Shown one piece after another: positions 39,687 to 45,472 of a DNA stretch of 64,000 nucleotides. Below the pieces are notes generated by a model that was given only the letters and a program-made list of their open reading frames with translations, did not search any database and was not told the origin of the DNA. Origin of the DNA: Tunturiibacter empetritectus (GTDB lineage: Bacteria > Acidobacteriota > Terriglobia > Terriglobales > Acidobacteriaceae); the NCBI RefSeq assembly GCF_013410875.1, contig NZ_JACCCU010000001.1, positions 2,480,001 to 2,544,000 on the forward strand, in the 5' to 3' direction. Within the stretch, counting starts at the first letter, position 1. Each line of letters starts with the position of its first letter. The translations under genes were made by a program, and so were the position numbers.

Positions 39687-40655
39687 ATGGCAACCCTTAC
39701 CATGCTTGAGCAGGCCCCGACACCAAAACCCGTCAACCGTGGCGCAGCAGACTACAACGATCTCACCACGGAGACCGCCAACGCCGCCTCAGAGGGACTC
39801 GACACCAAGTCCGCACTCGAGATCGCCCGAATCATAAATCACGAAGACGCCAAGATCGCAACCGCAGTCAAAAAGGCGCTGCCTGAGATCGCTATCGTCA
39901 TCGATACTGTCGCTCGCTCCCTGCGCGATGGTGGCCGACTGATTTACGTAGGAGCCGGCTCCAGCGGCCGCATCGCCTCTCTCGACGCCTCGGAGTGCCC
40001 ACCAACGTACTCCACCGCTCCTTCGCAAGTCCAGTACATAATGGCCGGCGGCCCCAAAGCTCTCGCATCTGCCTCCGACGTGAACGAGGATTCACCGGAG
40101 ATTGGCCAGCGCGACATCGCCCGACGACGCCCGACCCGCAAAGACATCGTCATCGGAGTCTCGGCGAGCGGCCGCACGCCTTACGTGGTCGGCGCGGTTG
40201 AGTATGCGCGGGCTCGGGGAGCTAAGACCGCCGCGATCACATGCAACCTCAATACCCCGCTCTCCGATGTTGCAGACACCACGGTCATCACTGAAGTCGG
40301 CCCTGAGGTTATCTCAGGCTCTACGCGCATGAAGTCTGCGTCAGCCCAGAAGATGGTGCTGAACATGATCACTACTGGGGCTATGACGCGGCTCGGGTAC
40401 GTCTACGACAACCTCATGGTCAATGTGCACATGAAGAACGCGAAGCTGGTAGAACGCGGCATTCGCGTGCTGATGAAGGTGTGCGATATCGATCGCGATA
40501 CTGCGATCCGCACCATCAAGTCCGCAGGCAAGTCAATTCCGATCGCCGTCGTTATGCTAAAGGCTAACGTCGACAAGATGGAGGCTGTGCGGCGCCTCAC
40601 CAAGTCGGATGGCAACGTTCGCCTTGCGATTGACGACTCTCGCCTCGAACTCTGA
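39687..40655 (+). CDS. murQ: N-acetylmuramic acid 6-phosphate etherase
   Basis: 322 residues. SIS-domain sugar-phosphate protein with GAGSSGRIASLDASECPPTYS, IGVSASGRTPYVVGAVEYA, and SGSTRMKSASAQKMVLNMITTGAM, all diagnostic of MurQ, which cleaves the lactyl ether of MurNAc-6-P to GlcNAc-6-P in cell-wall recycling. The C-terminal helix-rich extension is normal. It is followed after 3 nt by the convergent end of the sortase operon's last gene. murA lies 3.5 kb away. No transporter for MurNAc is nearby. Confidence 0.94.
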   Translation: MATLTMLEQAPTPKPVNRGAADYNDLTTETANAASEGLDTKSALEIARIINHEDAKIATAVKKALPEIAIVIDTVARSLRDGGRLIYVGAGSSGRIASLDASECPPTYSTAPSQVQYIMAGGPKALASASDVNEDSPEIGQRDIARRRPTRKDIVIGVSASGRTPYVVGAVEYARARGAKTAAITCNLNTPLSDVADTTVITEVGPEVISGSTRMKSASAQKMVLNMITTGAMTRLGYVYDNLMVNVHMKNAKLVERGIRVLMKVCDIDRDTAIRTIKSAGKSIPIAVVMLKANVDKMEAVRRLTKSDGNVRLAIDDSRLEL

Positions 40656-40658
40656 TTG

Positions 40659-42386
40659 TCAGGAAGCGCAGCCACCCACGCATGCGGTGCTGAGTTGCGC
40701 TTGCTTCAGTCCCGGCATGTCCTGATCCCTCCACACTCCGCCCTGGGCCTTCCATGGACTGACCGAGATGGTAGGTTGATCCTGCTCTGACGTGATCTTC
40801 CACCGCCCGTCGATTCGTTTGAGTGTCAGACGAGTCGGCACGAACGACTCTAAAATCTCCGACTGCTCGGGCTCGCTGATGAAGTGTTTCATAAGGCGAA
40901 CCTGAGCCTCCGACTCTGTCTGCCGTTCGATGACAATATCCTCCATCTTTACGGTCCACAGGCCTTTTCGCATGCGGTTGGTAGCCTCGCGGTCTCGTAG
41001 AACCGCGGCTCGTCCGACGTTTCGCTGATCAAGATAGCGATCCAGTTTGTCCGCATAGAAAGAAGCTTGAGCAGTTGCATCTCTTGTCTGCATCGAAGCC
41101 GCCCACCCTTGCAACCACCGCTTCACTTCCACACTATTAGCGACAGGCTGGGGAGTGGGATTTGGTAAAGAGGGCATGGGAGACGGCGTCATGGCCAAAG
41201 GGGCTTCAGAGGCTTTCGGATCGATCGGTAGAGGTGCTGTCGGTAGTGGCGCCGAAACCGCTGGAGCATGAATCTCTGGCGACGAAAGATACTTCGCGGC
41301 AATCGAGGCAGGATAGGCGAAGAGATCGGGATGTAAGGAATACAAACGATACCCCACTCCTGCCAGCGCCAGCAGTATGGCAAGGGCGGCTATCCCTCGC
41401 GCAAATTTTTTCCACCCAGAGGTTCGCTCCTCTTCCATTTGAAGTCTATGCGGTGGTATTCGAGCGTTCCAGGTCAGTTCATCTTCGCGTCCCAATCCGG
41501 CATCGAACTCTGGATATCTAACGGGATTACGCGCGGCTTCCCAGAGGGGAGCCTGGTTCGCTGCTGTCGGGCGTGCCTGCCCCTCGGTCCGTGCTTTGGT
41601 CTGAGCGGTAGTCTGTGTTGCGGTCGGCGCCGAATCGATCGCTCTTGTCGCTCTTTCTGGCCCATCTTTGATACCTGCGGGACGATACTCCATTGGTGGG
41701 GCGATAAATGGCTCCGCGATAGGTGCAGGGGGAGACTCGCTTCTTTGATCGGGCAGTTCAAGGCCCTGCGGCTCGTCAAGGTCAACGAGAGCGGCTGCGC
41801 CCCATCCCGAATCAGGAGCAGCAGCCGTCATGGCCTCCATCACAGTCTCTGGAGTCACGGCCGAAGCTGCCTTCTCATCTGAGGGCTGTAACGTCTCTGT
41901 CTCTTCTGACAGCCACACCTTCTCCTCAGACGGCTCCAACTCCCTCAGTTCAATTGCGTTCGGATCTTCGGGCCTGTCGATTACCGTCGTCGATGAAGCC
42001 ACGCCCGTTGTGGACGACGCCGACTTTCTTGCTGCTGTATAAGCCGCTACGCGCATGGAATCGAGGTGAATCTGCGCCTTCATCTGTTCAAACAGTTCAT
42101 CCAGTTTGGACCGAACCACCTCCTGTTGCGACGTCTCTCCCAGGAGCGCAGACGCCTGGAAGTTTACTTCCCCCTGGATCACGGTCTCGTTGTTCTCCGC
42201 ATTCACACAGAACACCGTAGTGTCGTGCTGGTTCTTTGATCGTGGCGACGGTCCTACGCCTCGTAGCGTAATTCGGTCGCCAGATCGCACTACCTCGCTG
42301 GAGATCTCTCGCGAACACATCTCCAACGCACGCAAAACCATCTCCGGATCCGGAGTCTGTACTGTTTCGTGGATCTCAAATCTCAT
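40659..42386 (-). CDS. Membrane-anchored protein of the sortase operon
   Basis: 575 residues, third gene of a minus-strand operon. No signal peptide; a soluble N-terminal part (1-325) with an N-terminal folded domain to about 120 and a low-complexity Thr/Ala/Pro/Glu-rich middle, then one membrane helix (about 330-349), a Pro-rich linker and a C-terminal domain (about 430-560) of NTF2/SnoaL-like pattern (RWLQGWAASMQTRDATAQASFYADKLDRYL split normally across helices). The topology would put that domain outside the cytoplasmic membrane. It ends with ACVGGCAS, two cysteines. No family known to me; its link to the sortase is by operon position, 18 nt downstream of it. Confidence 0.72.
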   Translation of the reverse strand: MRFEIHETVQTPDPEMVLRALEMCSREISSEVVRSGDRITLRGVGPSPRSKNQHDTTVFCVNAENNETVIQGEVNFQASALLGETSQQEVVRSKLDELFEQMKAQIHLDSMRVAAYTAARKSASSTTGVASSTTVIDRPEDPNAIELRELEPSEEKVWLSEETETLQPSDEKAASAVTPETVMEAMTAAAPDSGWGAAALVDLDEPQGLELPDQRSESPPAPIAEPFIAPPMEYRPAGIKDGPERATRAIDSAPTATQTTAQTKARTEGQARPTAANQAPLWEAARNPVRYPEFDAGLGREDELTWNARIPPHRLQMEEERTSGWKKFARGIAALAILLALAGVGYRLYSLHPDLFAYPASIAAKYLSSPEIHAPAVSAPLPTAPLPIDPKASEAPLAMTPSPMPSLPNPTPQPVANSVEVKRWLQGWAASMQTRDATAQASFYADKLDRYLDQRNVGRAAVLRDREATNRMRKGLWTVKMEDIVIERQTESEAQVRLMKHFISEPEQSEILESFVPTRLTLKRIDGRWKITSEQDQPTISVSPWKAQGGVWRDQDMPGLKQAQLSTACVGGCAS

Positions 42387-42404
42387 AGCGCCTCATCCCT
42401 ACTT

Positions 42405-42989
42405 CTAATGGATGGCAAAAACCCCGTCTGGGGAAGCCGACAAAAGGTGGGCATGAACAATAAAACGTTCCGGCGCTGCGCCCACATAGTCGAACGGAAA
42501 ACAAGTAATGAGCGTAAGCTCTGGCCTGGAGGCGATGTTCAGCACTCCTACCTTGTCGGGACTCACAATTTCAGTCGAGTCCACAACGTAGTGATAGGTG
42601 CCGCTTTTATCGATCAGCCGCACCTCCATCTTCGCGGCGATCCTGCGCAACGGCCGGAAGAACGAATCGCGATGACCTGCCAGCCCCACCGTACCAAGGC
42701 CACCCGGCACTGCGGTCCCGGGAATATGGCCCACTCCCCGATGCAAACTGTCTCTATCATAGTCGGCTGTAATCGGTGCTGACAACGCGAGTGCGGGAAT
42801 CTCAATCCTGCCAATCACATCCCCTGCCGCAGGCGCGACGTCCGGGGCGATTCTGGCTGGAAGAGGCTCTCCGATCCGTTCCGCGAGCCTCTGGGTCTCC
42901 TTTGCTTGAACACCCAGCACCAGGCAGTATCCAACGCAAAGGAGACCGCACGCCCATAGAAGACGCTCAGCGTATGCGAGGACTCGCAT
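42405..42989 (-). CDS. Sortase (class D-like transpeptidase)
   Basis: 194 residues from the ATG at 42989. One N-terminal membrane helix (about 10-27), then the sortase beta-barrel: catalytic H106 in GLAGHRDSF, nucleophile C163 in LTLITCFPF and R175 in PERFIVHA, all correctly placed. IGRIEIPALAL at the start of the barrel is the usual first strand. Sortases cut an LPXTG-like motif and attach the protein to a nucleophile. Sortases are rare in diderms. The upstream gene, 2 nt away, encodes a protein ending in LPHTAS plus helix plus basic tail, which is the probable substrate and fits the LPxTA-type motif reported for class D enzymes. Confidence 0.92.
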   Translation of the reverse strand: MRVLAYAERLLWACGLLCVGYCLVLGVQAKETQRLAERIGEPLPARIAPDVAPAAGDVIGRIEIPALALSAPITADYDRDSLHRGVGHIPGTAVPGGLGTVGLAGHRDSFFRPLRRIAAKMEVRLIDKSGTYHYVVDSTEIVSPDKVGVLNIASRPELTLITCFPFDYVGAAPERFIVHAHLLSASPDGVFAIH

Positions 42990-42991
42990 AT

Positions 42992-43738
42992 CTATTCCCG
43001 TAGCAACGACTCTTGATTCAAAGTGGACACACGGCTGTAGGCGATCAGTCGCAGAAGCGCTGCGGCGAGCAAGGAGCAGAAGCCCAGCAGCCATACCAAT
43101 GGCACCGGGCTGGCGGTATGGGGCAGCGCTTTGATCACTGGCTTCTGAACGCTGGCCACTTGCATGTATCGCTCCGCCTTGATGCCTGGCTTCGCACTGG
43201 CAGCATCGCCAGCCCCGCTGGGCCCTACCTGCTCGAGCGAAAGCAGCCAGAGCGTCAGCAGTTGCATGTCGTCCTGAGACAGCGTGTTATCGGTGACCTT
43301 CCCCTCCGACGCCGGATCGACGGCAGGCACCTTCGCGGGGTTTGAGGTGGCTATCGCAACCGCCTCAGCCTTCGGATAGACGAACTCTATGACCGAAGAG
43401 CCTCCGGGGAAGTACCACCCCTTGAGGTACTGAGAGCCATCAGCGGGATTAGCCCATCTCACAGCCCCGCTAGCCGATGGTTTCTGTATGTTGCCGTTTG
43501 GAATGCCGAGAAAGGTTGAGTGCACATCACCCTTCACCGAATCAACCTTCAGAATCACCCGGTCCGACAGGCGACTCACAACGTGGATTGTGTAGGAGCC
43601 AGGTTCAAGCGTAACCCCAGGAATGTGCGACGGGTTGGAGATCGTGAAATCAGCGGCGGGAGTCGCCGGCCCGGCAGCCCATACCTTCGGGCTGAAAAGG
43701 CACAAAGAGGCGCAGAATATGAGAGCTTTGAGTCGCAT
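42992..43738 (-). CDS. Probable sortase substrate with LPHTAS sorting signal
   Basis: 248 residues with AAGGAG before the ATG. Signal peptide (about 1-22, ending VWAA-G), a central beta-rich part (PGVTLEPGSYTIHVV; YFPGGSSVIEFVYP), then LPHTAS at 205-210, a hydrophobic helix (about 212-234) and a tail with R236, R248-region basic residues ending LLRE. This is the layout of a cell-wall sorting signal: motif, membrane stretch, positive charges. The sortase gene starts 2 nt later. The central domain has no match I recognise; an acidobacterial family starting with such LEPGSYTI blocks is known to me only as hypothetical. First gene of the operon. Confidence 0.85.
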   Translation of the reverse strand: MRLKALIFCASLCLFSPKVWAAGPATPAADFTISNPSHIPGVTLEPGSYTIHVVSRLSDRVILKVDSVKGDVHSTFLGIPNGNIQKPSASGAVRWANPADGSQYLKGWYFPGGSSVIEFVYPKAEAVAIATSNPAKVPAVDPASEGKVTDNTLSQDDMQLLTLWLLSLEQVGPSGAGDAASAKPGIKAERYMQVASVQKPVIKALPHTASPVPLVWLLGFCSLLAAALLRLIAYSRVSTLNQESLLRE

Positions 43739-44191: not shown

Positions 44192-45472
44192 ATGGACAAG
44201 TTCGTAGTACGCGGCGGCAATCCCCTTCTCGGCACCATCAAAGTCTCCGGAGCAAAAAACTCCGCTCTCCCCTGCATGGCCGCCGCCATTCTGACCGAAG
44301 ACGAGGTAATCCTCGAAAACGTTCCTCAGGTCAACGACATCGAAACTGAGCGCAAGCTCTTAACCAGCATGGGTGCTGAGGTGGAACTAGGCTATGGCCG
44401 CGCCCAGCATCGCACCCGCATCAAGTGCGCCATCCTGTCCGACCCCGTCGCAAAGTACGAGATCGTCAAGACCATGCGCGCCAGTTCCCTGGTCCTTGGT
44501 CCTCTCATCGCGCGCACCGGCATCGCACGCGTTGCCATGCCCGGAGGCTGCGCTATCGGCGGCCGCCCCATCGACCTACACATCAACGGCCTCGAAGCCA
44601 TGGGCGCGACCATCACCCAGGATCACGGCTACCTTGAAGCCCGTGCCGACCGGCTGAAAGGCGCGCACATCGTCTTCGACAAGATCACGGTCACCGGCAC
44701 CGAAGACCTTCTGATGGCCGCGACTCTCGCCGAAGGAGAGTCCATCTTCGAGAACTGCGCTCGCGAGCCCGAAGTCACCGATCTTGCAGCCCTGCTCATT
44801 TCCATGGGAGCAAAGATAGAAGGCGCAGGCACCGGCACCATCCGCATTCAGGGCGTCTCCAAACTCCACGGCGCACGCCATCGCATCAATCCAGACCGTA
44901 TCGAGGCCGGCACCTTCCTGATCGCGGGAGCCATCACAGGCGGCGACCTCAACGTCGACTGCTGCGAACCCAAACACCTCGGCGCGCTCATCACCAAGCT
45001 GGAACAGTGCGGCGTCAAGATCGACGTCGGCACCGACCACGTTCGCGTGCGCTCCGGTGGAGAACTTAAAGCTGCCGACATCACTACAGAAGAGTACCCC
45101 GGCTTCCCTACCGACATGCAGGCTCAATATATGGCGCTCGCCACCCAGGCCGAAGGCACCAGCACCGTGATCGAAAACATCTTCGAAAACCGCTACATGC
45201 ATGTGCAGGAGCTTATTCGCATGGGCGCGAACATCACCATCTCCGGCCGCACCGCGACTGTGCGTGGCAAGACGCCTCTGCAATCAGCTGCGGTCATGTG
45301 CTCGGACCTTCGCGCCTCCGCCTCCCTTGTACTTGCTGCATTGGTGGCCGATGGCGAAACCATTCTCGACCGCGTCTATCACCTCGACCGCGGCTACGAG
45401 CACTTCGAAGAGAAGCTCCGCGGCGTCGGCGCTCAGATCCGCCGTATGGGAGATGTCTTCGGGAAAAAGTAA
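44192..45472 (+). CDS. murA: UDP-N-acetylglucosamine 1-carboxyvinyltransferase
   Basis: 426 residues. K22 in SGAKNSALP, catalytic C120 in PGGCAIGGRPIDLH, and FPTDMQAQYMALATQAEG and RYMHVQELIRMGA later. Transfers enolpyruvate from PEP to UDP-GlcNAc, the first committed step of peptidoglycan synthesis. The presence of Cys at the active site predicts sensitivity to fosfomycin in general terms of the family. It begins just after a -10-like hexamer. Neighbour genes are not peptidoglycan genes, except murQ 3.5 kb away. Confidence 0.96.
   Translation: MDKFVVRGGNPLLGTIKVSGAKNSALPCMAAAILTEDEVILENVPQVNDIETERKLLTSMGAEVELGYGRAQHRTRIKCAILSDPVAKYEIVKTMRASSLVLGPLIARTGIARVAMPGGCAIGGRPIDLHINGLEAMGATITQDHGYLEARADRLKGAHIVFDKITVTGTEDLLMAATLAEGESIFENCAREPEVTDLAALLISMGAKIEGAGTGTIRIQGVSKLHGARHRINPDRIEAGTFLIAGAITGGDLNVDCCEPKHLGALITKLEQCGVKIDVGTDHVRVRSGGELKAADITTEEYPGFPTDMQAQYMALATQAEGTSTVIENIFENRYMHVQELIRMGANITISGRTATVRGKTPLQSAAVMCSDLRASASLVLAALVADGETILDRVYHLDRGYEHFEEKLRGVGAQIRRMGDVFGKK

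Follow-up and report, generated by a model that had tools for sequence, protein, structure and literature searches.

The window, a stretch of 64,000 nucleotides from Tunturiibacter empetritectus, encodes a class D-like sortase next to a protein with a matching C-terminal sorting signal, and judged from the sequences, the conserved unit is this pair of substrate and sortase, which recurs across the phylum Acidobacteriota. Sortases are enzymes that join proteins to the cell wall, and they have been studied almost wholly in monoderm bacteria, whereas the host of this pair is a soil bacterium with two membranes. Three genes lie in a row on the minus strand: the substrate (248 aa, 42992..43738), the sortase (194 aa, 42405..42989) and a third gene (575 aa, 40659..42386), separated by gaps of 2 and 18 nt. 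Coordinates, direction and gaps agree with an earlier, sequence-only reading of the region. The trio is flanked by murA (44192-45472) and murQ (39687-40655), both on the plus strand. We rejected this placement as a hint of a role in wall metabolism, since it is kept in the closest relatives only and is absent in a second genomic context of the trio (locus L043). Among named relatives, strains of Edaphobacter lichenicola are closest, with a sortase identity of up to 96%. A scan for promoters and terminators returned a number of sites not above that of shuffled sequences.

The substrate and its sorting signal

The substrate possesses all parts of a sorting signal, i.e. a signal peptide, an LPxT motif, a hydrophobic helix and a basic tail. 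The signal peptide, recognized by inspection and hydropathy and without a lipobox by inspection, is followed by a beta-rich domain (AF2 core pLDDT 93-97), a linker, LPHTAS, the helix and the basic tail. The LPHTAS motif (residues 205-210; 43109..43126, minus strand), with a predicted cut between T208 and A209, is conserved in 70 aligned homologues from across Acidobacteriota: P206 and T208 never vary, S210 is kept in 67/70, and position 209 holds alanine in 62 and glycine in six. Unlike this LPxT[AG]S tail, the linker columns directly before the motif are unconserved in the same 70 sequences. The hydrophobic helix covers residues about 214-232 (43043..43099, minus strand), with a hydropathy of 2.27; the AF2 model extends the helix over 212-247. 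Motif, helix and basic residues had all been described in the sequence-only reading, and all were found. The LPXTG anchor models of Pfam and NCBIfam (PF00746, TIGR01167) do not match the window substrate; at E <= 0.01, PF00746 recognizes 14 of the 70 homologues.

Profile scans with Pfam and NCBIfam assigned the substrate domain to no family, no solved chain matched it by sequence, and a Foldseek search with the full-length model as query found nothing at E <= 0.001 in the PDB or among viral entries. A partial likeness to DUF2911 (PF11138) is centered on a stretch around [LV]PAGTY, with a profile-profile probability of 83% over 40 columns, and 13/70 family members match this model at E <= 0.01. 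However, only about 40 residues align and the matches listed stay under the Pfam cut-off; moreover, the DUF2911 proteins collected here lack a sorting signal. Because the alignment covers only about 40 columns, we rejected kinship.

The substrate also contains a VYPK stretch, which resembles the core of a known pilin motif, and all of the 17 nearest homologues keep its lysine (K123); through this residue, the protein could be polymerised like a sortase-assembled pilin. In the whole family, however, position 123 is a lysine in only 59/70 members (otherwise seven Arg, two His, one Glu and one Ala), and the class C score of the sortase is far below its class D score. We therefore rejected the pilin identity and regard polymerisation as extremely improbable.

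The sortase and its pairing with the substrate

The second gene product matches the Pfam Sortase domain (PF04203, C60) with E = 7.6e-28 and 97.2 bits, against a cut-off of 26.6. The residues H106 (42672..42674), C163 of the TLITC motif (42501..42503) and R175 (42465..42467), all encoded on the minus strand and invariant in 16 homologues, correspond to the His, Cys and Arg triad of sortases, as had been noted before. Transpeptidase activity is predicted. Residues 10-28 form the N-terminal membrane anchor. The ranking of the class models is SrtD (123 bits), class D (116), E (69), GN (66), C (61) and F (18), and the protein remains below each cut-off, including those for SrtD (NF058671, 123 vs 140), class D (NF033746, 116.1 vs 165) and the class GN marine sortase (TIGR03784, 65.8 vs 158.25). 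One relative, that of locus L098, passes the SrtD cut-off with 144 vs 140 bits. Among solved chains, 2ln7 (E = 5e-28), cited as the representative of class D (PMC9520033), is the nearest. As far as these tests reach, we classify the enzyme as class D-like, with scores below the NCBIfam class D cut-offs.

The genome of the window contains this sortase only, and a search for further LPxTA substrates in it returned no convincing candidate, the next best match to the sorting-signal profile having E = 0.24. In a sample of 35 genomes from the genus of the window (Edaphobacter), the substrate family is present in 17 of the 19 that have a sortase and in none of the 16 that have not (Fisher p = 4e-8, a value that overstates the number of independent events because the genomes are related). 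In the two exceptions, G067 and G113, the sortase adjoins a different protein family (cluster 3), and the G067 member has the tail alone in common with the substrate. From the genome collection, we analyzed 80 named loci, which represent the top matches of the query and not a random sample; five of them have the sortase no more than about 0.8 kb from a contig end, leaving 75 that could be assessed. In all 75, a member of the substrate family is encoded on the strand of the sortase, 74 times upstream and once (L114) downstream; the match is weak in L130 and L131. The recurrence of motif, helix and sortase linkage in every assessable relative suggests more than chance.

The full-length substrate family occurs in 36 of the 150 genomes of an order sample, i.e. 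about a quarter. Sortases of any kind were detected in 60/150 genomes of the order and in 58/297 genomes of the phylum; the expectation that sortases are rare in diderm bacteria accordingly fails for Acidobacteriota. What had been proposed as a dedicated neighboring substrate of class D type, with LPxTA as its motif, is borne out by the alanine that follows the threonine in 62/70 homologues and by SrtD as the best class model.

Predicted reaction and related systems

Because substrate and sortase co-occur, the sortase is the sole one of its genome, no second substrate was found, the linkage holds in 75/75 loci and the motif is conserved, we read the two proteins as a one-enzyme, one-substrate system. 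Pairing, motif, triad and membrane anchors are legible in the gene and protein sequences themselves. The cleavage site, the acceptor and the periplasmic location of the product are inferred, and we consider it reasonably probable that the pair is dedicated to anchoring, with a cut between Thr208 and Ala209 and transfer to peptidoglycan, probably to meso-diaminopimelate. According to this model, the substrate would be exported by Sec and lose its signal peptide, and its C-terminal helix would keep it in the inner membrane. C163 of the membrane-anchored class D-like sortase would attack LPHTAS and cut between T208 and A209, forming an acyl-enzyme, and a peptidoglycan precursor would accept the new C-terminus on one of its amino groups, most likely that of meso-diaminopimelate. 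The end product, beta-rich and about 185 residues long, would be held to the periplasmic peptidoglycan by a flexible linker. Acidobacteriota peptidoglycan is expected to contain meso-DAP. We propose it as the likely acceptor because the class D sortase of Bacillus anthracis, whose cut in LPNTA falls between Thr and Ala, employs m-Dpm as its nucleophile (PMC3297441).

Alternatively, the sortase could act as a processing protease: after the same cut, water would resolve the acyl-enzyme and a soluble substrate would be released into the periplasm. This would agree with the lack of an acceptor gene nearby, and sortases can hydrolyse when an acceptor is absent. The best-studied class D relative is, however, a peptidoglycan transpeptidase (PMC3297441), and we consider release unlikely. 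A further possibility is an acceptor other than peptidoglycan, i.e. a lipid, a sugar or a surface polymer, with a different location of the product, possibly the cell surface. The diderm envelope speaks for it, as do rhombosortase and exosortase, other C-terminal sorting systems of diderms whose products have other fates; yet the pair is not accompanied by transport or glycolipid genes, and we rate such an acceptor as rather improbable. The surface display suggested earlier receives no backing either: nothing points to a crossing of the outer membrane, and a protein that leaves by Sec and is cleaved by a sortase of the inner membrane should end up in the periplasm. For anchoring to the diderm sacculus, which remains our preferred reading, one enzyme, one substrate, a single strong sorting signal and a culturable genus would make a simple test case.

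Dedicated pairs of sortase and substrate are already known. The class D systems, i.e. B. anthracis SrtC with BasH and BasI (LPNTA) and Clostridium perfringens SrtD (LPQTGS), resemble the pair in the LPxTA-type motif, the best class model and the nearest solved structure. The srtD gene of C. perfringens is clustered with the gene for an LPQTGS protein (PMC4498605), so that a sortase is encoded together with its own substrate, as in the window. The pair differs from these systems in its diderm host, its scores under the class D cut-offs, the absence of a link to sporulation and a substrate family unrelated to any curated model. NCBIfam also contains the marine proteobacterial sortase of class GN (TIGR03784) and, as its target, a VWA-type protein (TIGR03788); this system shares the diderm host and a dedicated neighbor substrate, and many Acidobacteriota relatives of the pair have a VWA gene beside the sortase. 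In these, however, the signal sits on a small separate protein, and the listed VWA C-termini show none. On Acidobacteriota sortases, the literature consulted yielded nothing except that six sortase genes were counted in Ca. Solibacter. To judge by these sources, the substrate family and the VWA partner are new, and so is the link, across the phylum, between that family and a class D-like sortase in diderm hosts.

The third gene and other locus arrangements

The sequence-only reading had treated the three genes as a self-contained unit. Checked across Acidobacteriota, the order of substrate and sortase is kept, but the third gene is absent from loci outside the Edaphobacter/Granulicella group. 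Within Edaphobacter, it was detected at E <= 1e-5 in 11 of the 19 genomes that have a sortase and in 12 of the 16 that have none (p = 0.48). In one genome (G008, locus L160), the counterpart of locus L043 of G060, with flanks 85-88% identical, is devoid of the about 1.5 kb that hold the pair; the third gene stays open, and what appears to be a short piece of the sortase 3' end is left. The simplest reading of these sequences is that the pair was lost and the third gene stayed. The third membrane protein could be the acceptor or an obligatory accessory factor. In favor of this, its gene follows the pair after 18 nt in the closest relatives, and the order substrate, sortase, third gene is kept in the second genomic context (G060, L043). 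Given its survival of the deletion, its presence in sortase-less genomes, its absence from eight of the 19 sortase-bearing ones and its restriction to one group, we consider a three-gene system very unlikely; a role as acceptor found no support. Gene content and order argue that the third gene is a separable neighbor with its own history, which the pair does not require. In sortase-less relatives (L156, L157, L166, L169 and others), it is often flanked by an MFS-like transporter gene on one side and by peroxiredoxin-like or fabD-like genes on the other, which represent its own conserved context.

The third protein consists of an N-terminal domain, a disordered stretch, one helix and an outer C-terminal domain. 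Its description as a one-helix membrane protein is confirmed by a single predicted helix (328-346). An NTF2-like C-terminal domain is plausible, with sub-threshold matches to DUF4440 (0.034), SnoaL_4 (0.079) and Rv0361_Cterm (0.011) and a low-confidence AF2 model. The N-terminal domain lacks a signal peptide and is modelled by AF2 at about 90; a START/Bet v 1 identity is weak (best E 4.7e-4, target TM-score about 0.5, alignment of six sequences) and is not claimed. The protein has no solved relative by sequence.

Substrate and sortase are directly adjacent in 31/75 loci. In most others, a gene of about 310-390 codons separates the two and usually overlaps or abuts the sortase start. The two intervening proteins that were scanned are both TIGR03436 Acidobacteriota VWA proteins (3e-63, 6e-50). 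On the sortase tree, adjacent and interrupted arrangements are clustered, yet they switched several times (10 changes); the window falls in an Acidobacteriaceae clade without the VWA gene. We tentatively suggest that a phylum-wide, so far undescribed Acidobacteriota sortase pathway may covalently attach a single dedicated and structurally new protein family to the diderm periplasmic peptidoglycan, in many lineages with a VWA-domain partner.

A malic enzyme gene takes the VWA position between substrate and sortase in L099, L103, L111, L118 and L150; for L118, a Pfam match confirms the assignment. The order also contains a second sortase type, whose LPxTG-type partner (cluster 3, e.g. LPKTGS) lies directly downstream and not upstream (L023, L029, L031, L044, L055, L056, L060, L063, L065, L067, L070). 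At loci of a third type (L004, L006, L007, L008, L013, L018, L059), a small protein with an LPVAGS-like tail precedes the sortase, and a gene resembling amino-acid (glycine) oxidase follows. L098 is labelled Betaproteobacteria and groups inside Acidobacteriota; it is likely misbinned. L130 and L131 belong to Candidatus Eisenbacteria, where the similar pair points to a possible transfer out of the phylum.
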